Shown piece by piece: positions 471-19,900 of a stretch of DNA of 34,695 nt. Position numbers and translations under genes: made by a program. Position 1 is the stretch's first letter. Each line of letters begins with the position of its first letter. The notes under the pieces are model-generated. The model saw only the letters and a program-made list of their open reading frames with translations, was not told where the DNA came from and ran no database searches. Origin of the DNA: a virus; IMG/VR virus record IMGVR_UViG_3300028025_000381, positions 1 through 34,695 of that record. One strand, 5' to 3'.

Positions 471-3185
471 ATGGCTAGAATTAGTACATATCCTATAGAT
501 GCTACCCCAAGCATCGAAGATAAGGTTATTGGTACTGAGGTCAATAACGAAAATGAGACTAAGAATTACACAATAGGTGATATTCTCAGTCTCATTGTTA
601 TACCTACACCAACCTTAGACGAAGTCCTACAAGCAGGTGGAACATTAGAGGGTGATAGGGTTATTAATACCAATGGATATGACTTATCTTTTATTGGCAA
701 TGTAGATATGGAGCAACTTGTTGTTTCAAATAGCATCTTTGCCAATGCATTCGTAAAAATAAACGGTCTAGCCACAGAAATATTAGCAGCAGATGGTTCT
801 GTAATTGTTGCAGGTTCTAATATATCAATAGCAGGTGGAACAATATCTGCTATTGGTCAAGATGGTACGTCAGGTACGTCAGGAACAAGTGGACTTAATG
901 GAACTAGTGGGACCTCAGGAGTTAATGGTACATCAGGGTTTTCGGGTTCTTCAGGCTCTTCGGGGTCTTCAGGTGTAAATGGTACTAGTGGGGTAAGTGG
1001 AACTAATGGTACGTCAGGAATTAACGGTACAAACGGTACTTCGGGAATTAATGGCACATCAGGTGTTAACGGGACTAGTGGTTCTAGTGGAACAAACGGT
1101 ACTAGTGGTACTGATGGGGCAAGTGGGACTAGTGGAGTTAATGGGACAAGTGGTACTTCAGGTGTTGATGGTACTTCAGGGACTAGTGGATTGGATGGTA
1201 CATCAGGAATAAGTGGTACTAGTGGAACAAACGGTACTAGTGGTACTGATGGAACTAGTGGTACGCATGGTACTAGTGGTTCTAGTGGCATAGACGGTAC
1301 TAGTGGTACATCAGGTATCAATGGAACATCGGGTTCTTCAGGTGAGTCAGGTAGTTCAGGCTCATCAGGTACTAGTGGTACTGATGGTAGTAGTGGTACT
1401 ACAGGGACTTCAGGTACATCAGGAAGTTCGGGTACATCAGGTACTAGTGGAACAGACGGAGTAGCTTCAGGAAGGTTATATTATTTTAATAACTCTCAAA
1501 ACTCAGATATATCTCCATATAAAGTTTTAGCAGAGCAACCAACTACAGCATCACTTCAAACTATTACAAAAACTTTAACAAGCAATCAGCAGAATGTTTT
1601 AGTTCAGGAATTTTTAACACCTGAATTTGGATTTACTTTAATCCCTTCAGGTATACAAAGATTTACTTTGCATTCTTTAAAGCCTGCGTCTAATGATAAC
1701 ATTGGAATCTATGTAACTCTTCAATTGGCTGATGCTTCAGGTGTTGGTTACAGTTCAATATTTACAACAAATACAGTTATAATTGGTTGGGATGGTAGTG
1801 GAGTTCCAACCGAAAATGCAGTTGATATTGTATTCCCTAATACTACAGTTGCAGCAACAGATAGAATGATTGTTAAGATTTACTTTAACAATAATGATTC
1901 AACAACCCACAGTGTTAATTGGTACACTGAAGATGGAGAATATTCATACGTTGTTACATCTTTGTCTGCACCTGCAGGTACAAGTGGGACATCGGGTACA
2001 AGTGGAATAAATGGTACTAGTGGAAGCAGTGGTAACTCAGGTTCATCAGGAACATCAGGTTCTTCGGGCGAGTCAGGAAGCAGTGGAGTGTCGGGTACTA
2101 GTGGTACAAGTGGATTAGATGGTACTAGTGGATTATCAGGTTCGTCAGGAACAAGTGGAGTTGATGGGACTTCAGGTTCTAGTGGAACTTCAGGATTATC
2201 AGGAACAAGTGGATTAGATGGTACTAGTGGAACAAGTGGATTAAACGGTACATCGGGGTCGAGTGGCGTGAATGGTACTTCAGGAACAGATGGCACTTCG
2301 GGAGTTAGTGGAACTAGTGGAGTTAATGGTACATCGGGAGTTAATGGAACATCAGGAACGGATGGCACTTCGGGAACATCAGGTGTTAATGGCACTAGTG
2401 GAACATCGGGTGCAAATGGAACATCAGGCACATCAGGCATAAGTGGGACATCAGGTGTAAATGGCACATCAGGAACATCAGGTGTTAATGGCACTAGTGG
2501 CGTAAACGGAACATCGGGAGTATCAGGTACAAGTGGTGTTAATGGGACATCGGGTACTAGTGGTACATCTGTTACAGTATCAGGTACCAATAACTATGTA
2601 ACTAAATTTACAAGTGCTAGTACAATTGGTAATAGTATTATACAAGATGATGGTACGTATGTTGCTATTGGGGCAACACCAAACTCAAGTACAAAATTAT
2701 TGGTTAATGGTAGTCTATCTATAGCGACATCTAGTTTCTTTTATTTAGATTATAATACAAAGAATGCTGCTATAAGAGCAAGTACTACAGGAAGTGCAGA
2801 GATGGAGTTTTATACTGCAGGCACTTCGGGTTCAAATATACGTATGAAGATTGCATACGATGGTGCGGTTGCTATATACAATCAGTTTAATCGTCAGACT
2901 GCATCTTATACATTAGCTTTATCTGATGCAGGAAAGATTGTTGAAATGAATGGGGCGAGTACAAATAATTTAACTGTACCACCAAATGGAACAATAGCAT
3001 TCCCTATCGGAACTGAGATTCAGGTTCTTCAATACAGTGCAGTACAAACAACTATTGTTGCAGGTTCAGGTGTAACATTAAGAAGTAAATCAGGTCAATT
3101 AAAAATAGCAAATCAATATACAGGAGTAACACTTGTAAAAGTTGGTACTAACGAATGGTATGTGATTGGTAACTTAAGTGCATAA
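471..3185 (+). CDS. Tail fibre/receptor-binding-type protein with two proline-free collagen-like blocks
   Basis: A 904-aa protein. Residues 1-128 are an N-terminal domain, probably the virion-attachment part. Residues 129-330 and 503-700 are two unbroken blocks of Gly-X-Y triplets, about 66 each. X is mostly Thr, Ser, Val, Leu or Ile, and Y is almost always Ser, Asn or Asp, so GTS dominates. Pro, Lys and Arg are absent from the blocks. Residues 331-502 form a non-repetitive, probably beta-rich domain between them. Residues 701-904 form a C-terminal domain starting TVSGTNNYVTKFTSAS and containing SYTLALSDAGKIVEMNG, a layout common at fibre tips. Collagen-like blocks in phage fibres form trimeric shafts. 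The very high Ser/Thr content makes it a candidate substrate for the glycosyltransferase at 3819-5936. It overlaps the next gene by one base (TAATG). Confidence 0.85.
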   Translation: MARISTYPIDATPSIEDKVIGTEVNNENETKNYTIGDILSLIVIPTPTLDEVLQAGGTLEGDRVINTNGYDLSFIGNVDMEQLVVSNSIFANAFVKINGLATEILAADGSVIVAGSNISIAGGTISAIGQDGTSGTSGTSGLNGTSGTSGVNGTSGFSGSSGSSGSSGVNGTSGVSGTNGTSGINGTNGTSGINGTSGVNGTSGSSGTNGTSGTDGASGTSGVNGTSGTSGVDGTSGTSGLDGTSGISGTSGTNGTSGTDGTSGTHGTSGSSGIDGTSGTSGINGTSGSSGESGSSGSSGTSGTDGSSGTTGTSGTSGSSGTSGTSGTDGVASGRLYYFNNSQNSDISPYKVLAEQPTTASLQTITKTLTSNQQNVLVQEFLTPEFGFTLIPSGIQRFTLHSLKPASNDNIGIYVTLQLADASGVGYSSIFTTNTVIIGWDGSGVPTENAVDIVFPNTTVAATDRMIVKIYFNNNDSTTHSVNWYTEDGEYSYVVTSLSAPAGTSGTSGTSGINGTSGSSGNSGSSGTSGSSGESGSSGVSGTSGTSGLDGTSGLSGSSGTSGVDGTSGSSGTSGLSGTSGLDGTSGTSGLNGTSGSSGVNGTSGTDGTSGVSGTSGVNGTSGVNGTSGTDGTSGTSGVNGTSGTSGANGTSGTSGISGTSGVNGTSGTSGVNGTSGVNGTSGVSGTSGVNGTSGTSGTSVTVSGTNNYVTKFTSASTIGNSIIQDDGTYVAIGATPNSSTKLLVNGSLSIATSSFFYLDYNTKNAAIRASTTGSAEMEFYTAGTSGSNIRMKIAYDGAVAIYNQFNRQTASYTLALSDAGKIVEMNGASTNNLTVPPNGTIAFPIGTEIQVLQYSAVQTTIVAGSGVTLRSKSGQLKIANQYTGVTLVKVGTNEWYVIGNLSA
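855..1460 (+). repeat. Gly-X-Y coding repeat, block 1
   Basis: Nine-base units coding Gly-X-Ser/Asn/Asp run without interruption. The phrase ggtactagtgg recurs many times, but Gly, Thr and Ser codons vary from unit to unit (ggt/gga/ggg; act/aca/acg/acc; agt/tca/tcg/tct). The repeat is therefore kept at the protein level and is not a fresh DNA expansion. It encodes fibre residues 129-330. Confidence 0.9.
1977..2570 (+). repeat. Gly-X-Y coding repeat, block 2
   Basis: This is a second uninterrupted block of the same triplets, fibre residues 503-700, separated from block 1 by about 515 bases of non-repetitive coding sequence. Codon variation is as in block 1. Units of the type GTSGVN and GTSGTSG dominate. 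Such blocks are prone to recombination and length change. Confidence 0.9.
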
Positions 3186-3511
3186 TGGGACATTTATTAT
3201 CAAGTGCTATAAAAATGCAGGGTGGTGCTGCTGCTCCTACATTACAAATAAATAATCTTGGCGGTTTGACTAATTGTAGTTGGTTAAAAAATGGTGTTAG
3301 TCAAGGTTCTGTTACAGGAACTTTAAATGTAACATTGACAGCAGGTGATACTTTTTTAGTGTCTGCATCTAATTTTGGTGGTGCAACTATTGATTATTTT
3401 CTAAATGCTGCTTATGTGACAACATATTTTGATGACCCTATTGCACAAACACCAACTATTACATCTGCTGCCGGTAACGCATATAAATTTGATTGTTATG
3501 GTGGTGCTTAA
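3185..3511 (+). CDS. Small hypothetical protein downstream of the fibre
   Basis: A 108-aa protein starting on the last base of the fibre stop codon (TAATG), so translation is probably coupled to the fibre. The sequence alternates hydrophobic and polar residues (GTLNVTLTAGDTFLVSASNF), suggesting a small beta-sandwich. There are only two Cys and no signal peptide or membrane segment. The family is not recognised. Position suggests a fibre-associated, capping or folding protein, but nothing in the sequence proves it. Confidence 0.65.
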   Translation: MGHLLSSAIKMQGGAAAPTLQINNLGGLTNCSWLKNGVSQGSVTGTLNVTLTAGDTFLVSASNFGGATIDYFLNAAYVTTYFDDPIAQTPTITSAAGNAYKFDCYGGA

Positions 3512-3520
3512 TAAATAATT

Positions 3521-3847
3521 ATGGAAATTATATACACTTGGGAAATCACTGCAATGGAAGTTATCTTAAATCAAGATGGTCTTCCTAACGTAGTTAACAA
3601 TATTGATTGGAGATTAATAGCTACAATTGATGGTGAGAAGTATCGTGCTGAGCAATGGGCTAAGCAATATGTTAGTGCACCTGATGCAAATACATTTACT
3701 AACTATGAAGACTTAACTAAAGAACAAGTTATTGGATGGCTAGAAAATATATTAGATGTTTCACAATTAAAAGAAAACTTAGCATATCAAATAGACTTAC
3801 AAGCTAATCCTATTACTGCTATTCTTGCTCCACCATTTGAGAATTAA
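3521..3847 (+). CDS. Small hypothetical phage protein (possibly DUF7936-like)
   Basis: A 108-aa protein opening MEIIYTWEITAMEVILNQDG. From memory this resembles a short phage family beginning with a Tyr-Thr-Trp strand (DUF7936-like), found near tail genes of marine phages; the match is tentative. A beta-rich N-terminal half is followed by a helical segment (NYEDLTKEQVIGWLENIL) and a hydrophobic end. It follows the previous gene after nine bases. Its last 29 bases overlap, tail to tail, the end of the minus-strand glycosyltransferase gene. It is the last plus-strand gene of the left block. Confidence 0.6.
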   Translation: MEIIYTWEITAMEVILNQDGLPNVVNNIDWRLIATIDGEKYRAEQWAKQYVSAPDANTFTNYEDLTKEQVIGWLENILDVSQLKENLAYQIDLQANPITAILAPPFEN

Positions 3848-5936
3848 TAATATCAATTATATCTTGTGGCTTGATACCTGATTGACATTCAAATTGTCTA
3901 TCAGTATCTTTATGTATTGGACACCAACCCCAATCTCCTTTATCAAATCTAAACTCAGGGTTGTTCCAACATCCATGACAAACATTTTTGTTTATAGGTC
4001 TATGGCATTTAAACTCATGGTCAGCTTCTGTGAAGTTGCTAATCATTATCACTTCTTTGTTTAGTGTCCAAGCTAACCAACTCAATCCACTTGATAAACC
4101 TATAAAGAAATCACTGTGTAGTATAAAGTTTATAGTTGAATTAATTGATTTATCTACAGGTACGGAACAATTATCAAATGGATTATCTTCTAATGAAACA
4201 TTAATTACCTTATACCCTTTTGAGACTAAGTAGTTAATTACCTCTTGCCAATTTTCTTTTGACCAAAACTTACAACCTGCTGTAGAGTTTGTAGCTATAG
4301 TTACATACTTATCTATTGGTGGTTCCATTAATTCAAATCCTATTACAGGTTTAATCTCTTTATATTCTAATCCAAGAATATTAGATGCTGTTTTTTGTAA
4401 AGGTATTGTGTTAGGTAACTCAGGTTCTTTATTGCTATTATAAAACCAACCGAGAGAGTACATTGCATATAAGTTCTTAACTGTTGAACCGGGTTCAACA
4501 AACTCAATATCAGGATATGTATCTACAAATAGTTTATTCCAAAATGTACTTACAACTAAATCACAGCCATGCTTCTTTCTGTACTCTTCGCAATATGGAA
4601 TCCAAGCTAATGTATCTCCAAGAGACTTGCTGTCAAAAGCAATATATACTCTTTTATCTTTATCATTATAAATATGGTCATAGATGATATTAGCATTATT
4701 ATCTAATACCATTACTCTCCAATTGGCATAATACTCTTTGTTAAGTTTTGTCCATTGATTGCATCCTATTTGAGTACGATACACCAAGCCTTCACCACCA
4801 TACCATTCTACTGTGAATATTTCATCAGACTCTCCTAGTATTTCTAGGAATGGTTGTCCAACAAAATGTGTGTTTATAGTTAACGTATTTTTCTGAGGTT
4901 CCTTTTCCATAATACTTTTGTATAAATTAATATGACCTAATGCAAATTCTTCTGATTGTCCTACAGGAATATCGTATCCTCTATATCCTTTTAATACTTG
5001 TTTTAATTGTTCCTCTAGATAATCAGAATCTAATGGAGTTATATAATCATCAAACATACCTTCATACTGAGGAAGATTTCTTGCAATGATTTTATTACCA
5101 TAACTTATTGCTTCACGTATAACAAGTGGGTTGCACTCCCATGTACTGTTAAACATAAATACATCTGCTGCTAATAGAAATCTCCATATATCTTCTCTTT
5201 CGCCCCATACCTTACAATTACTAGGAAGGTCTTTCATTAGTGGTTCCCAATAGTTCTGAAAGTTTACAGCTTGATTTCCTACAAAATGAAACTGAACATT
5301 AGGCATTTTTCTAGCTAATTCTATAGCCTCCTTTTGATTCTTTCCTTCAGTCCATAATCCAATACTAACTACATGGTCTTTTTCAAAATCAAATTCTAAA
5401 TCCCTCATTGCATCATCCCACTGATAATTTCCTGTTAAATCATCAATAGGGAATTGTAATACAGTTTTAGGAGATGGCATATCAGCAAACGTCTTTAAAT
5501 GATATGGAGTGCAGAATGCATATGCGTCAGGATGAAATCTTTTAGTTGTATTTGGATTAAACCAAACATTATGACAGGTTTCTACTATACGCCAAGTTCT
5601 ATCCTTAGCATATAAAGCTTTCATTAATTCTTCAGGTACTTGATTATGTGAATCAAACCCTTCAATCATTTCATCTATATGTATAATGTCAATCTTTAAA
5701 TTTTTAATTATATCAATTAACATCATCTTGTCTTCACCAAGAGTTATTATTGGTGTTAACTCATCAATTTTATTTTTATGTACAACATAATCATTGCTAT
5801 AGTTTTTATACTCTACTACATATATATAAGCATCTGTGTACTTCTGTAGTAGTTCAATTCTTTTTAATAAGAATGCAGGCATTCCACCTGTAGATAAATG
5901 TGGTGCTAGGAAGAGTATACTGATTTTATTATTCAT
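3819..5936 (-). CDS. Two-domain glycosyltransferase: GT4-like domain fused to a TibC/Aah-like protein O-heptosyltransferase
   Basis: A 705-aa protein. Residues 1 to about 345 form a GT-B glycosyltransferase. They contain the Gly-rich LSTGGMPAFLL (14-24) and the retaining-enzyme EX7E motif (Glu267, CNPLVIR, Glu275) followed by AISYG. After a beta-rich linker, residues 428-700 resemble the bacterial autotransporter O-heptosyltransferases (TibC, Aah): FDSKSLGDTLAWIPYCEEYR (434-453, with Asp441), ATNSTAGCKFWSKENWQEVI (548-567), GLSSGLSWLAW (613-623) and a cysteine finger. The finger is Cys653-x2-Cys656-x15-Cys672-x11-Cys684, with VCHGCW and WCP. In TibC a comparable four-Cys finger binds iron, and the enzyme moves heptose from ADP-heptose to Ser of beta-helical repeats. 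There is no signal peptide, so it is cytoplasmic. It is the only long minus-strand gene here. The natural substrate is not visible; the nearby fibre or a host surface protein are both possible. Confidence 0.8.
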   Translation of the reverse strand: MNNKISILFLAPHLSTGGMPAFLLKRIELLQKYTDAYIYVVEYKNYSNDYVVHKNKIDELTPIITLGEDKMMLIDIIKNLKIDIIHIDEMIEGFDSHNQVPEELMKALYAKDRTWRIVETCHNVWFNPNTTKRFHPDAYAFCTPYHLKTFADMPSPKTVLQFPIDDLTGNYQWDDAMRDLEFDFEKDHVVSIGLWTEGKNQKEAIELARKMPNVQFHFVGNQAVNFQNYWEPLMKDLPSNCKVWGEREDIWRFLLAADVFMFNSTWECNPLVIREAISYGNKIIARNLPQYEGMFDDYITPLDSDYLEEQLKQVLKGYRGYDIPVGQSEEFALGHINLYKSIMEKEPQKNTLTINTHFVGQPFLEILGESDEIFTVEWYGGEGLVYRTQIGCNQWTKLNKEYYANWRVMVLDNNANIIYDHIYNDKDKRVYIAFDSKSLGDTLAWIPYCEEYRKKHGCDLVVSTFWNKLFVDTYPDIEFVEPGSTVKNLYAMYSLGWFYNSNKEPELPNTIPLQKTASNILGLEYKEIKPVIGFELMEPPIDKYVTIATNSTAGCKFWSKENWQEVINYLVSKGYKVINVSLEDNPFDNCSVPVDKSINSTINFILHSDFFIGLSSGLSWLAWTLNKEVIMISNFTEADHEFKCHRPINKNVCHGCWNNPEFRFDKGDWGWCPIHKDTDRQFECQSGIKPQDIIDIINSQMVEQE

Positions 5937-5996: not shown

Positions 5997-6223
5997 TGAT
6001 AATAAGGAAAATATCTATAGGACCTGATTATAAATCAGGGGCTATGCATTACATAACAGGGCAAAAAGTTCTAGGCGATAGCCATGTAATCCATTTAATT
6101 AAGTATGAAGAAAACTTTGGCTCATTCCAAATATGGATTGAAGCAGATAATGAAGTTGTTCTTTGGAAAGAGTTCACATCAAACGTACCTGTATCAGTAG
6201 AATATAATATAGATTTTAAATGA
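5996..6223 (+). CDS. Small hypothetical protein, first of the packaging operon
   Basis: A 75-aa protein starting MIIRKISIGPDYKSGAMHYI, with a later aromatic and acidic beta-strand-like end (VVLWKEFTSNVPVSVEYNID). No membrane segment, cysteine or known catalytic motif is visible. I recall similar short proteins near the terminase genes of other Bacteroidetes phages, without a known function. Its ATG overlaps the -33 box of the opposing glycosyltransferase promoter. Its TGA overlaps the next gene's ATG (ATGA), so the two are probably translationally coupled. Confidence 0.65.
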   Translation: MIIRKISIGPDYKSGAMHYITGQKVLGDSHVIHLIKYEENFGSFQIWIEADNEVVLWKEFTSNVPVSVEYNIDFK

Positions 6224-6783
6224 AATCACCTTTCTTCTTTATAGCCAAACCCATTAAAGGGAAGAGGTATGATAATACAAAGTCCATTGGTGGTATTGAA
6301 TTTATAACTAGTACATCTGAAGAAGACCACAGGTATTCAAATAGGATGGCAGAAGTTATATCTGTTCCACTAGGGTATGAAGGACCAATTAAAGAGGGCG
6401 ATACTCTATTAGTTCATCATAATGTTTTTAAATATTATAATGATATGAAGGGTAGGCAAAAGAGTGGTAAGAGTTTTTTTAAAGATGATTTATTCTTTAT
6501 AGAGTTCGACCAATTCTTTTTATATAAATCTGATGGTGATTGGTTCTCACACGATAGATATTGTTTTGTTAAACCTATTCCACCAACTGAATCTTATATA
6601 ATGAAACCATTTAAGGAGGAACCATTGATGGGCATAATGAAATACACTAACGAAGAGTTATCTAGACTTGGTGTAAATAATGGAGATAAGGTTTGTTTCC
6701 ATCCTGAGAGTGAATATGAATTTAATGTTGATGGAGAAAAGCTTTATAGAATGTTCACACATCAAATAGCAATTGTACTATAA
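6220..6783 (+). CDS. Tandem GroES-like (Cpn10-fold) protein, putative phage co-chaperonin
   Basis: A 187-aa protein that reads as two GroES-like units. Unit 1 (about 6-102) has IAKPIKGKRYDNTKSIGGIE, like the KSAGGI stretch of GroES. It continues with AEVISVP..IKEGDTLLVHH and closes with FFIEFDQFFLY, like GroES GEVLAVG..VKVGDIVIF and SESDILAIV. Unit 2 (about 115-187) repeats the pattern: CFVKPI, GIMKYTNEELSRLGVNNGDKVCFH, then DGEKLYRMFTHQIAIVL. GroES caps GroEL, and T4 gp31 is a phage version needed to fold the capsid protein, so a capsid-folding role would fit this position. The mobile-loop IVL-type tripeptide could be SIGGI in unit 1; it is less clear in unit 2. The fold could also serve a non-chaperone role. 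Confidence 0.5.
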   Translation: MKSPFFFIAKPIKGKRYDNTKSIGGIEFITSTSEEDHRYSNRMAEVISVPLGYEGPIKEGDTLLVHHNVFKYYNDMKGRQKSGKSFFKDDLFFIEFDQFFLYKSDGDWFSHDRYCFVKPIPPTESYIMKPFKEEPLMGIMKYTNEELSRLGVNNGDKVCFHPESEYEFNVDGEKLYRMFTHQIAIVL

Positions 6784-15184: not shown

Positions 15185-15212
15185 TAAGTACAATTAAGTT
15201 TGTTTAAAGATG

Positions 15213-15245
15213 AGGGGGTTCACAAGACCCCCTTTCTTTTTTTTC
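15213..15245 (+). terminator. Rho-independent terminator before the tail operon
   Basis: The stem AGGGGGTT (15213-15220) pairs with AGACCCCCT-side bases (15226-15233) around a CACAA loop, followed by TTCTTTTTTTTC. It closes the single-gene unit that starts at 14435. Confidence 0.8.
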
Positions 15246-15246
15246 T

Positions 15247-15254
15247 TATCTTTG
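15247..15254 (+). promoter_or_regulatory. -7 box for the connector/tail operon
   Basis: TATCTTTG matches TAnnTTTG, directly after the terminator's T-run and exactly 15 bases before the ATG at 15270. This is the same spacing as at 11775-11798. A terminator followed at once by a -7 box marks a transcription-unit boundary. The -33 TTG is not evident. Confidence 0.55.
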
Positions 15255-15269
15255 TGAAAACATTATATA

Positions 15270-16028
15270 ATGATTAACTCAGTAAGAAATACAGTATTGT
15301 CTGTTCTGAATAAGAACAACTACGGATATATATCTCCGTCTGATTTTAACCTGTACGCTAAGCAGGCTCAGATGGAGTTGTTTGAAGAATATTTTAGCAG
15401 CTATAACAAAGTTATAAATGCTGAGAATGCACGCCAATCAGGTGTTGATTATGGAAATATTAAAAGACCAATCTCAGAAACATTAGAATCATTTTCTGAA
15501 ACTAAACCATTGGTACAAGTAGCAGTAGATACAAATAAATTTTATGTACCAACCTTAACAACTACAGGTGATACATATTATATGATTAATAAAGTGCTAT
15601 GCTATAAACTTGTAGGAGAAGATTTAAGCTATCTAGGAGAAGCTGAAAAAGTAACACTGAGTAGAATCACTATGCTGAATGCATCGTTGCTTACAGCCCC
15701 TAGTGAGATGTTTCCTGCATGGGTTCAGGAAGGTGAAGTCATAACCGTTTATCCATCTACAATAAATTCAGAAGATTCTTTGGTTGCACAATACTTTAGA
15801 CATCCTAAAGACCCTAAGTGGACTTATATATCTCTATCAAATGGTGAGCCTGTGTTTGACCAATCTCAATTAGACTACCAAGATTTTGAATTACCACTAG
15901 AAGATGAGTATAAATTAGCTATGAAGATTCTTCAATACTGTGGTGTATCTATTAGAGAGCAAGAAGTTGTTCAGTTTGGTATGGCTCAAGAACAACACGA
16001 ACAACCAACATTTAGTCAACAACAATAA
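15270..16028 (+). CDS. Probable head-tail connector (adaptor) protein 1
   Basis: A 252-aa protein opening MINSVRNTVLSVLNKNNYGY, then SPSDFNLYAKQAQMELFEEY, a helical start followed by a beta-rich middle and a Gln-rich tail (QEQHEQPTFSQQQ). I recall related proteins in the same position in many uncultured Bacteroidetes phages. Adaptors that join the portal to the tail have this size, sit after the capsid genes and have helical N-termini. A specific adaptor family cannot be named. It is the first gene of the unit that begins at the -7 box at 15247. Confidence 0.6.
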   Translation: MINSVRNTVLSVLNKNNYGYISPSDFNLYAKQAQMELFEEYFSSYNKVINAENARQSGVDYGNIKRPISETLESFSETKPLVQVAVDTNKFYVPTLTTTGDTYYMINKVLCYKLVGEDLSYLGEAEKVTLSRITMLNASLLTAPSEMFPAWVQEGEVITVYPSTINSEDSLVAQYFRHPKDPKWTYISLSNGEPVFDQSQLDYQDFELPLEDEYKLAMKILQYCGVSIREQEVVQFGMAQEQHEQPTFSQQQ

Positions 16029-16039
16029 AAGAATAGAAC

Positions 16040-16963
16040 ATGGCATATATATCTCAATATAAATATTACGAGAATGCAGGAGTACCTCCTGAGAATCAAA
16101 ATTGGGGGTCTTACCAATATGTAAGTCTTTTCGATATTGTAAATAACTTCTCATTAATGTATAGTGGTAATCACTCATTGGTTAACAATGAGGAGCGTTA
16201 TAAGATTTTGTTTCATGCAAAACGTGCTATACAAGAATTAAACTACGATGCGTTCAAGGAAATTAAAGCTTTGCAGTTGGATGTAGATGACAAGTTAAGA
16301 TTCATCTTACCATCTGATTATGTGAATTGGGTTCGTATATCTTACTATAAAGATGGTTGGATTAGACCACTCACAGAAAACATTCAATTAAATAGTTCTC
16401 AGGAATATCTTCAGGACCAAACAGGAAAGATTTTGTTTGATGAGGAAGGCAATATATTGAGACCTGAGTATTCTGAATTAGATTATGATAGAATTGTAGG
16501 TCAACAAAAAAGTATATACTTAAATTCAGGAAATCAATTTGATGGTTCTGAAGGTTATAACTATGATGGTAGATGGTACTTTGAACATTCTATTGGAGAT
16601 AGATTTGGTTTAAATACAGAGACTGCTAACTTTAACCCTACATTTAGGATTGACAACAAAGCAGGAGTAATAAACTTTAGTTCAGACATGCAACACCAAT
16701 CTGTTATCGTTGAATACATATCAGATGGTATGGAGCAGGGAGACAACTCAAAGATTAGTGTTAACAAACTATTCGAGAATTATATCTACGCATATATTCA
16801 ATATGAAATACTAAGAAGTAAATTAGGTGTACAAGAATACATAGTAGCTAGAGCAAGAAAAGATAAATCTGCATTGCTTAGAAATGCAAAAATCAGAATG
16901 AGCAATATCCATCCGGGTAGATTGCTTATGAATTTGAGAGGTCAAGCTAAGTGGATTAAATAA
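16040..16963 (+). CDS. Probable head-tail connector or tail-gatekeeper protein 2
   Basis: A 307-aa protein with a helical segment (YKILFHAKRAIQELNYDAFK) followed by PSDYVNWVRISYYKDGWIRP. It contains several predicted strands and a helical end (LFENYIYAYIQYEILRSKLG; then KSALLRNAKIRMSNIHPGRL). The pattern 'helix, then DYVNWVRI, then a beta-rich middle, then long helices' is shared by a family found next to the adaptor gene in crAss-like and related phages, comparable in place to T7 gp11 or P22 gp4. It lies 11 bases after the previous gene and one base before the next, so all are co-transcribed. Confidence 0.6.
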   Translation: MAYISQYKYYENAGVPPENQNWGSYQYVSLFDIVNNFSLMYSGNHSLVNNEERYKILFHAKRAIQELNYDAFKEIKALQLDVDDKLRFILPSDYVNWVRISYYKDGWIRPLTENIQLNSSQEYLQDQTGKILFDEEGNILRPEYSELDYDRIVGQQKSIYLNSGNQFDGSEGYNYDGRWYFEHSIGDRFGLNTETANFNPTFRIDNKAGVINFSSDMQHQSVIVEYISDGMEQGDNSKISVNKLFENYIYAYIQYEILRSKLGVQEYIVARARKDKSALLRNAKIRMSNIHPGRLLMNLRGQAKWIK

Positions 16964-16964
16964 T

Positions 16965-19900
16965 ATGGCGAACATTAATAGAAATTTTACAGCAGGACGA
17001 ATGAATAAAGTCGTTGATGAACGACTTGTGCCTAATGGAGAATATATTGATGCACTTAATATTCGTATGGGTTCTACTGAACTTTCGGAAGTTGGTGTTA
17101 TTGAGAACTCTAAAGGTAATACTGTTTTAACTGCGTTACAATATGATGGTGTTTCTCTTAGTGGTGATGCTAGATGTATCGGTGCTTTAGAGGATGGTTC
17201 AAATGAAACTATATATTGGTTTATACACGATAGTAATTTTGAAACTAGTCCAACAGGTAAACTAGATTTAATATGTTCGTATGATACCAAGAGTAGTATT
17301 CTTACATACCATATCATAAGTATTAATGATGGGAGTGGTATAAATACTACACTTAATTTTAATCCTACATATTTAATTACAGGAGTAGATTTAGTTGAGA
17401 ACTTATTGTTCTTTACAGATGATTACAATGCACCTAGAAGAATAAACATAGTTAAGAACTATGCTAATCCTTCAGGTGGTGTAGATGGATTTAGCAATGA
17501 ATCTATTTTGGTTATTAAGAAACCACCTATTGAATCTCCATCTATTGCACTTCTTGCAACTAATGGTCAAGAAAATTTCTTAACAGATAATTTTATATGT
17601 TTTGCATATAGATATAGATATGAGGATGGAGAATATTCTGCAACATCCCAATGGTCAGGACCTGCATTTATACCTAAACAATTTGAGTTTAGTACAGAGA
17701 GTTACTTAAATGAGGGTATGACCAATCTTGCTAATTCAGTTAATGTAACAATTAACACAGGAGATTCTCTTGTTGTTGGTATTGATTTACTATTTAAAGA
17801 AGCAGGTGGTAACATAATTAAGGTTATAGAAAAATTAGATAAAGCTAATTTAGGTTTACTAGATAATGCTGAATACACATATCAATTTACAAATAGTAAA
17901 ATATTTACAGTATTACCTGAGTCTGAAATTTTAAGACTTTATGATAATGTACCAAGATTTGCTAAGGCTCAAACTATAATGGGCAATAGATTAATGTATG
18001 GTAACTATGTAGAAGGATATGACCTTATTGATTCTAATGGTAATCCTATTAAATTAGAATACACAGTAGATTTAATAACCGAAGATATAGGTCTTACAGA
18101 TATTACTACTGAAAACCAAGATGGTAACTATACAATAGATTTACCACAAACAATTACAGATTCAGTATTATCAATAGATTTAGATGGTGTTGAATTAATT
18201 CAAGGTTCATCAATAGTTATTGATGTTACACTTACACATGAATCATTCTCAGGAGATACACCATTCCCTACAGAAACAACAGACAATGTATCAGAAGGAT
18301 TTACATTCTTCTTGCCAAGAAATTATACATCTGTTTATGATTTAGCAACAAGCGATGAGTTTCAATTAGCTATGGGTACATCAGCAAATATTGAACCTGT
18401 TGCTACAGCGTGTGATGGAGTTACATTTACAGATAGAATAAATTGTGTGTTACCAAATAACTTAGATGCATTAGAAAAATTAGCAAGTGGTGTATCTGCT
18501 ACAGGTCAAGGTATAGAGATTATAACAACACCTGCAAGCAATAGTATTGGATTACAGTTTATTGCAATGGAATATGTAGATGATGTCGTAACACCAACAC
18601 AAAGAGTTTATGAGTATTACTCAATAGTATTTGCAGATGTTACATTTCAAAAAGATGGCAACACACAAAGTTTACATAGCAATAGAGATTACGAAATAGG
18701 TATAGTTTATATGGATGATTACAATCGTGCAACTACTGCATTGGTTAGTCCAAACAATACTGTACACGTTCCATGTGGAAACTCAAGTACAAAGAATTAT
18801 ATAAAGGTTACAATACCTCCTACGCAAAAGCCACCATATTGGGCAACTAGATATAAATTTGTAATCAAAGCTAACGCTGAAAATTACGATACTATATATA
18901 CAAATCTTTTCTTTAATAATCCTGAAACAAATGAAGTTTGGTTTTATCTTGAAGGAGAGAATGCTCGTAAAGTCCAAGTTGGAGATAGATATATTGTTAA
19001 AGCTGATACTGATGGACCTTTACTAACCTGTGCTAATGCAACAGTTTTAGCAAAGGAATCACAGGGAGAAAATTTTATAACACCAATAGAGGATGTAGCA
19101 GTCCCTGCAGGTGTTTACATGAAGATTAACCCTAATAGTTTTTCTGCTGTAACAAATCCTGATGCTGTAGTAGCACCGGGTTCTCAAACTGCTACAGCAC
19201 CTAAGGGTGGTAACTATGCTAAATTAAACTATCCGATGAATTTATATAGAGGTGCTAATTATGACCCTCTAAATCCTTTATGGGAGTATGAGGATTATAC
19301 TGTACCTGCAGGAAGTTTAATTAGATTTAATATAGTTTGGAAAAGAGATGGTGTTGGTAATCGCTGTGAAGAAAGAGGATTTATATTTGAAAAAGACCTT
19401 ACATCTTTATCTAGTTACGATAATATGGTAGATTGGTTTAATGGAGAAAATGTAGCAGCATTACTACCAACAGGATTTTCAATAGATGGTGATACATCAA
19501 TAGAATATATTTCTACCGATGGTATATTAAATACATATAATTTCAGTATAAATTATATGCAATTTTATAGAGACCCAACTACAAATCAACTTATACTTCA
19601 AACGACTACAGGCAAGAGTTGTACAGGTGAAAATTACTCCAATAGTAGAGCATATAGAGTTACTGCAGATATAGAAGTATTCAGGGCACTAAATACAATT
19701 ATATTTGAAACTAAAGCTACTGAGACTTTACCTGACGTATTTTTTGAAAACAATTTATCATTAGCAATTACTAATGGTAATCATCAGGGTAATATTCAAA
19801 ACCAAAATACATCTACAGGAGTATCAGCAATTATAGAACCCGAGTTTTTTAACTGCTTTGCATTTGGTAATGGAGCAGAGAGTTACAAGATATTAGATTC

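Follow-up and report, generated by a model that had tools for sequence, protein, structure and literature searches.

A phage-encoded GT4-TibC fusion protein as a candidate O-glycosyltransferase of a collagen-like tail fibre

The fusion gene and its surroundings

The window (the whole stretch of DNA analysed, a 34.7-kb virus record) carries, antisense to its structural operon, an intact ORF with no internal stop that encodes a GT4 glycosyltransferase fused to a TibC-type module (Table 1). The gene lies tail-to-tail with a collagen-like fibre gene, from which it is separated by the DUF7936 ORF and one small ORF. Its neighbours are this fibre and phage head genes; an adjacent autotransporter with 19-residue repeats is absent. 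The two collagen-like tracts together hold 134 Gly-X-Y triplets, with Ser or Thr at 190/268 X/Y positions (71%), and both are proline-free. A GroES-like co-chaperonin gene (6220-6783), kept in sister phages, is located 5' of the terminase gene. The terminase itself has its nearest match in an uncultured phage record (78%), followed by the terminases of Flavobacterium and Cellulophaga phages, so that the host of the window virus is, on this gene's affinities, likely a member of the Bacteroidota.

Table 1. Positions of the fusion gene, its parts and the proposed substrate in the window
Feature	Position	Strand	Basis
Collagen-like tail-fibre gene, 904 aa, proposed substrate	471..3185	+	PF01391 collagen 3e-58; PHROG tail fiber 6e-61
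First collagen-like tract, proposed modification sites	855..1466	+	68 Gly-X-Y triplets, 96/136 X/Y Ser or Thr, no Pro
Second collagen-like tract, proposed modification sites	1977..2570	+	66 triplets, 94/132 X/Y Ser or Thr, no Pro
DUF7936 ORF	3521..3847	+	3' end overlaps 3' end of fusion gene by 29 bp
GT4-TibC fusion glycosyltransferase gene	3819..5936	-	705 aa, ATG start, convergent to fibre operon; ORF list, Pfam, NCBIfam, PDB match, model m026519666e31
GT4 half (retaining, GT-B fold), residues about 1-342	4911..5936	-	Pfam Glycos_transf_1; EX7E conservation; Foldseek GT4 matches
TibC-type N-terminal beta-barrel, residues about 353-425	4662..4880	-	Predicted strands in model; full-length structural match to 4RAP over about 374 columns
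TibC-type catalytic domain, residues about 426-698	3843..4661	-	Asp441 (base), Thr552, Lys556 and Trp620 kept; Thr601 at Arg286 position
Four-cysteine iron finger (Cys653, Cys656, Cys672, Cys684)	3885..3980	-	Alignment to TibC Cys339/342/358/370

Fold, conserved residues and spread of the fusion

The original prediction, made from the letters alone, had described this ORF as a phage-encoded fusion of a GT4 enzyme with a TibC-like protein heptosyltransferase, and profile searches placed both halves above the cut-offs of their families. Pfam Glycos_transf_1 matched residues 179-314 (1.2e-10; 41.7 bits against a gathering score of 26.4), Glyco_transf_9 matched residues 542-654 (1.1e-6, over the gathering score), and NCBIfam TIGR04414 (hepto_Aah_TibC) matched residues 393-698 with 267.7 bits against a curated cut-off of 200. 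TibC (4RAP) was matched in a PDB sequence comparison at an E-value of 4e-50. An AlphaFold2 model was computed from an input alignment of 57 relatives (mean pLDDT 88.4) and compared by Foldseek, which matched 4RAP (E 6e-29; TM 0.85, normalised to TibC) and, for the N-terminal half, GT4 enzymes including 7MI0, PimB' and BshA. The fusion is thereby confirmed: of the two outcomes named in advance as refuting it, a missing structural match to TibC and homologues lacking the cysteines, neither occurred. Since Foldseek superposed the protein from about residue 350 onward on TibC, the module begins near residue 350, and not at residue 420 as had been proposed; it includes the N-terminal barrel (beta strands predicted at residues 353-434), on which TibC activity depends (PMC4358343).

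Functional TibC residues were taken from the structure paper (PMC4358343), and their conservation was counted in the 57 sequences. The hallmarks named in the original prediction all hold functional positions: Asp441 in GDTLAW corresponds to the catalytic base Asp110, Thr552 and Lys556 in ATNSTAGCKFWS correspond to the phosphate-binding Thr226 and Lys230, and each of the four cysteines has its own counterpart among the iron ligands of TibC, all four being kept in 57/57. Asp441, Thr552, Lys556, the sugar-binding Trp620 (TibC Trp305) and the equivalent of TibC Phe368 were likewise invariant (57/57). In the EX7E motif of the GT4 half, Glu267 is kept in 57/57 and Glu275 in 55/57, with Gln in the other two. 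Given these conserved catalytic and iron-binding residues, the chemistry of the TibC half should be like that of TibC.

Other positions have changed. The adenine-contact Arg286 of TibC is replaced by Thr in 56/57 close relatives and by Val in one; across all sampled modules, Thr occupies this position in 83/93 fused phage modules, and stand-alone bacterial modules most often have Arg. The Pro300 position holds Ser, as in AAH, which takes both ADP-heptose epimers (PMC4358343). In the alignment, the beta-hairpin of the dodecamer thumb lacks about 10 residues relative to that of TibC; Phe265 is kept as Phe587, and Val266 is mostly Asp, Glu, Lys or Asn. Because V266D abolishes both the ring and the activity of TibC (PMC4358343), the assembly of these proteins must differ from TibC's.

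An IMG/VR scan with an alignment of the TibC half returned at least 569 confirmed relatives, which ruled out a fusion unique to the window phage. Predicted TibC modules are present in hundreds of aquatic phages and are nearly always fused: the intact TibC ORFs in the fetched IMG/VR contigs were all fusions, of about 700 aa (GT4-TibC) or about 990, 1150, 1230 and 1450 aa, the longer ones having a methyltransferase domain, of the FkbM or another type, and one of them Gly_transf_sug before GT4. Stand-alone phage modules also occur (e.g. L007, L430, L431, L432 and L440). A named isolate, Microcystis phage Mel-JY01, carries the gene as well. Each of the 20 large phage records used for the neighbourhood comparison below held a single TibC gene. 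Three GT4 types, which align with one another barely or not at all, precede the TibC modules in the same order; in the closest pair, the window and L086, the TibC modules share 55% identity and the GT4 parts give no significant alignment. As the module tree also requires at least six changes between the fused and the stand-alone state, GT4 and TibC have been joined or exchanged more than once. In this tree the window protein falls outside the true-TibC clade.

Comparison of the window gene with L001 5943-8075 showed both gene ends to be 92-100% identical and the middle 61-81%, indicating that the fusion gene of the window lineage is a probable mosaic formed by recombination inside the gene. 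Several unusual arrangements were seen in other records. In L006, from a 735-kb phage, a 1140-aa ORF (1335-4757) starts with a window-type GT4 (43% identical) and has no TibC module, and the adjoining gene is a different GT4 fused to TibC. In L429, three successive ORFs with partial TibC similarity (2360-5202) lie ~10 kb ahead of a complete GT4-TibC fusion (15212-17314). The TibC frame of L436 (G034:C1:76001-96000), beside Gly-Thr/Ser-Ser fibres, contains seven in-frame TGA codons, and TGA is probably reassigned there. In L105 (674-3140) and L106 (398-2867) the TibC gene stands in tandem with a degenerate copy, a possible pseudoenzyme partner, in which the catalytic Asp/Thr/Lys have become Asn/Gly/Gly.

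Neighbourhood of TibC modules and Gly-Thr/Ser-Ser repeats

To compare neighbourhoods, the TibC loci of 20 large phage records were set against 37 stretches of 18-20 kb taken from other parts of those records. Gly-Thr/Ser-Ser tracts (18 loci) or Thr-Pro tracts (3 loci, one locus having both) were found within about 8 kb in 20/20 TibC loci and in 1/37 of the other stretches (Fisher p 2e-14). The single positive among these other stretches lies in G020, at the far end of the contig, which cuts off a fibre that starts there and has the window's anchor; should the record be circular, this fibre and the one in L002 may be one gene. Of 38 non-redundant loci, 28 have a Gly-Thr/Ser-Ser gene on the downstream side within 6 kb, convergent in every case, and 5 have one upstream. 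In L031, L043, L060, L062, L076, L080 and L083, mucin-like structural proteins rich in Thr-Pro lie near TibC, in place of Gly-Thr-Ser fibres or alongside them.

The reverse test started from phage contigs chosen by a Gly-Thr-Ser DNA pattern, blind to TibC; such collagen-like fibres are present in many aquatic phage contigs, and 30 contigs were searched whole. TibC was detected in 16/30 (one of the 16 already in our set), in 14/18 among contigs of at least 80 kb, and in 0/30 sister-phage records. The repeat lay inside the retrieved 19-20 kb TibC neighbourhood in 10/15 reverse-test contigs. Since the remaining 14/30 repeat contigs, some of them fragments, gave no TibC match, the repeat does not require this enzyme. 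Within the window lineage, both Gly-Thr/Ser-Ser tracts and TibC were absent from all 31 terminase relatives whose upstream sequence was long enough, and from 31 complete fibres with the window's N-terminal anchor; the fibre-anchor scan gave one complete positive. Because the terminase positives belong to the window lineage alone, the terminase comparison amounts to one evolutionary event, and the fibre-anchor scan likewise; with one gain or loss behind them, these lineage comparisons carry less weight than the comparison across lineages.

A scan of bacterial genomes yielded 23 TibC relatives, mostly stand-alone proteins of 370-430 aa with few fusions. Many of the stand-alone relatives, from outside the TibC/BAHT clade, adjoin proteins with long (Gly-Thr-Ser)n or (Gly-Ser-Ser)n runs, several of which have lipoprotein- or signal-like N-termini; such secreted-looking proteins flank TibC relatives in L096 (6503-6883 and 9246-9872), L097 (9229-9930), L101 (6850-7800) and L089 (5790-6997). 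A whole-genome pattern search found repeats in 12/23 genomes, and all listed repeats shared a contig with TibC, at distances of up to about 18 kb and usually as the next gene, the listed coordinates being compared by hand with the locus ranges. L096 has one repeat on each side of TibC and none elsewhere in its 3.8-Mb genome. The five genomes of the true TibC/BAHT clade among the 23 had no Gly-Thr/Ser-Ser repeats.

We also drew 321 genomes of one class, in which a strong TibC match was present in two, both with repeats, against a Ser/Thr repeat in 2/319 others (p 1e-4, in a draw whose centre was chosen for its TibC and whose other TibC genome had been found previously too). The repeat pattern occurred in 12 genomes of the draw; four were kept and eight were dropped by eye from the bases as not coding Ser/Thr repeats, because the W/S code in the pattern can equally stand for Arg, Cys, Trp or stop codons. 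Weak matches (20-38 bits) in 53/321 genomes looked like remote GT9 relatives and were not counted as TibC. As the repeats stand beside TibC relatives in bacteria as well as in phages, the pairing, judged from gene neighbourhoods, belongs to this clade outside true TibC, in cellular and viral genomes alike, and is more than a feature of a phage insertion site.

Proposed function, alternatives and known systems

We propose, with a probability of about 0.64, that the protein is a cytoplasmic O-glycosyltransferase with two activities whose substrate is the collagen-like tail fibre of the phage itself, the TibC half starting the glycan and the GT4 half extending it. During virion assembly in the cytoplasm, the TibC half would recognise the Gly-Thr/Ser-Ser repeats and, with Asp441 as base, place the first sugar, supplied by a nucleotide sugar of the host, on Ser/Thr hydroxyls, and the fused N-terminal GT4 half would attach a second sugar onto the first. 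In larger relatives, the extra N-terminal methyltransferase or third transferase domains may cap or lengthen the glycan. The tract lacks proline and so would need stabilising in another way; the expected benefit would be a hydrated, stable and shielded fibre. Computation shows the fold, the conservation of active-site residues and iron ligands, the repeated occurrence of the fusion, and the strict proximity to Gly-Thr/Ser-Ser repeats in both phage and bacterial genomes; from these we infer activity, sugar identity, donor, step order and benefit. Counting against the fibre as substrate, the known substrates of TibC/Aah are beta-helical autotransporters, unlike collagen-like tracts, and tail-fibre regions are general insertion hot-spots.

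Whether the first sugar is heptose bears on the name of the enzyme. A true protein heptosyltransferase, in which the TibC half moves heptose from ADP-heptose to the fibre and GT4 extends it, is compatible with fibre glycosylation and would name the sugar; we regard it as possible yet doubtful. The equivalog cut-off of TIGR04414 is passed, Trp305, Lys230, Thr226 and Asp110 are kept, and Ser replaces Pro300 as in AAH; against this, Arg286 is lost, which leaves heptose unproven, and 0/35 TibC-bearing phage records had a domain scoring as ADP-heptose synthase above the curated threshold, so that the donor would come from the host. The "heptosyl" part of the original label is therefore unsupported. 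The proposed fibre glycosylation also suggests that TIGR04414 merges two clades with different substrates, and the label "autotransporter heptosyltransferase" is accordingly probably wrong for the phage members and many bacterial ones.

The target and the order of steps admit other readings. Glycosyltransferases encoded next to the tail fibres of aquatic phages are most often credited with superinfection exclusion or host-surface modification (PMC7029224, PMC10202952); here this would mean glycosylation of a host surface protein or LPS against competing phages, the fibre adjacency reflecting an insertion hot-spot, and the antisense, moron-like position of the fusion gene fits this reading. We consider it unlikely, since it leaves unexplained why one repeat type accompanies TibC across unrelated phages and bacterial chromosomes, and why sister phages whose fibre, at the same place, lacks Gly-Thr/Ser-Ser tracts also lack the gene. 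The evidence thus points to the phage's own fibre instead of a bacterial surface protein, the target implied by the original comparison with TibC/Aah. A reversed order, the GT4 half placing the first sugar on the fibre and the TibC half the second, is improbable: protein O-glycosyltransferases exist among GT4 enzymes and the SdgA model matched weakly, but bacteria and phages both have stand-alone TibC relatives, lacking GT4, next to these repeats, and the GT4 part has been swapped between unrelated types. Least credible of all is a TibC module that serves for targeting only, binding the repeats while the GT4 half catalyses; the iron finger and barrel do contribute to substrate binding in TibC (PMC4358343), but the TibC catalytic residues are all invariant in the relatives counted. 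The two-step scheme of the original prediction, in which the TibC half starts on protein and the GT4 half extends, appears plausible because three unrelated GT4 types are fused in the same order and because the tree requires repeated changes between fused and stand-alone modules. What stands overall is a fused TibC-type protein glycosyltransferase with the tested catalytic and iron-binding residues kept; heptose as its sugar is unproven, and the target is probably the phage's own fibre.

Fibre glycosylation by the fusion protein would link proline-free Gly-Thr-Ser stalks to a candidate enzyme, predict a heavily O-glycosylated tail fibre, and supply a substrate signature for hundreds of proteins labelled merely TibC-like or glycosyl transferase family 1. 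More broadly, and at even odds, there may be a TibC-type clade apart from the autotransporter heptosyltransferases, common to bacteria and phages and dedicated to O-glycosylating Gly-Thr/Ser-Ser repeats, from which phages have repeatedly built one-protein lines (methyltransferase, GT, GT4, TibC) that coat fibres with a short modified glycan and stabilise the proline-free stalk. In the open-licence PMC literature, no published description of phage TibC, of Gly-Thr-Ser fibres or of fibre glycosylation was found. The top structural matches in a viral library were "Glycosyltransferase Aah/TibC" A0A6J5SVC1 and NIOZ-UU157 A0A7S9XE01, the latter 56% identical to the window protein over 707 columns; both are known by their database names, and the same literature gave no account of their architecture or neighbourhood.

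The GT4-TibC fusion is common in aquatic phages and is a variant of known TibC-type enzymes. With TibC and AAH (BAHT; TIGR04414; 4RAP, 4RB4) it shares the module fold, the Asp/Thr/Lys/Trp set, the Cys4 finger and the N-terminal beta-barrel, and with AAH in particular the Ser at the Pro300 position; unlike them, it is fused to GT4, has lost Arg286, has a shortened thumb, falls outside the TibC clade and adjoins a Gly-Thr/Ser-Ser repeat fibre instead of an autotransporter. Mycobacteriophages offer a parallel by description, enzyme families aside, in that phage-encoded enzymes glycosylate the phage's own structural proteins (Freeman et al. 2023, as cited in PMC12619734), although there the sites described are the capsid and tail-tube C-termini. 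For the proposed substrate, the closest likeness is to BclA of Bacillus spores, a Thr-rich collagen-like exosporium filament with short O-glycans attached to its collagen region (PMC11952670, PMC8968730). BclA-type filaments decorate a spore and not a virion, and the passages on BclA do not mention a TibC-type enzyme; like the fibre considered here, they place a Thr/Ser-rich collagen-like stalk on a particle surface, with short O-glycans of which some are methylated (PMC11952670, PMC8968730, PMC6222408).
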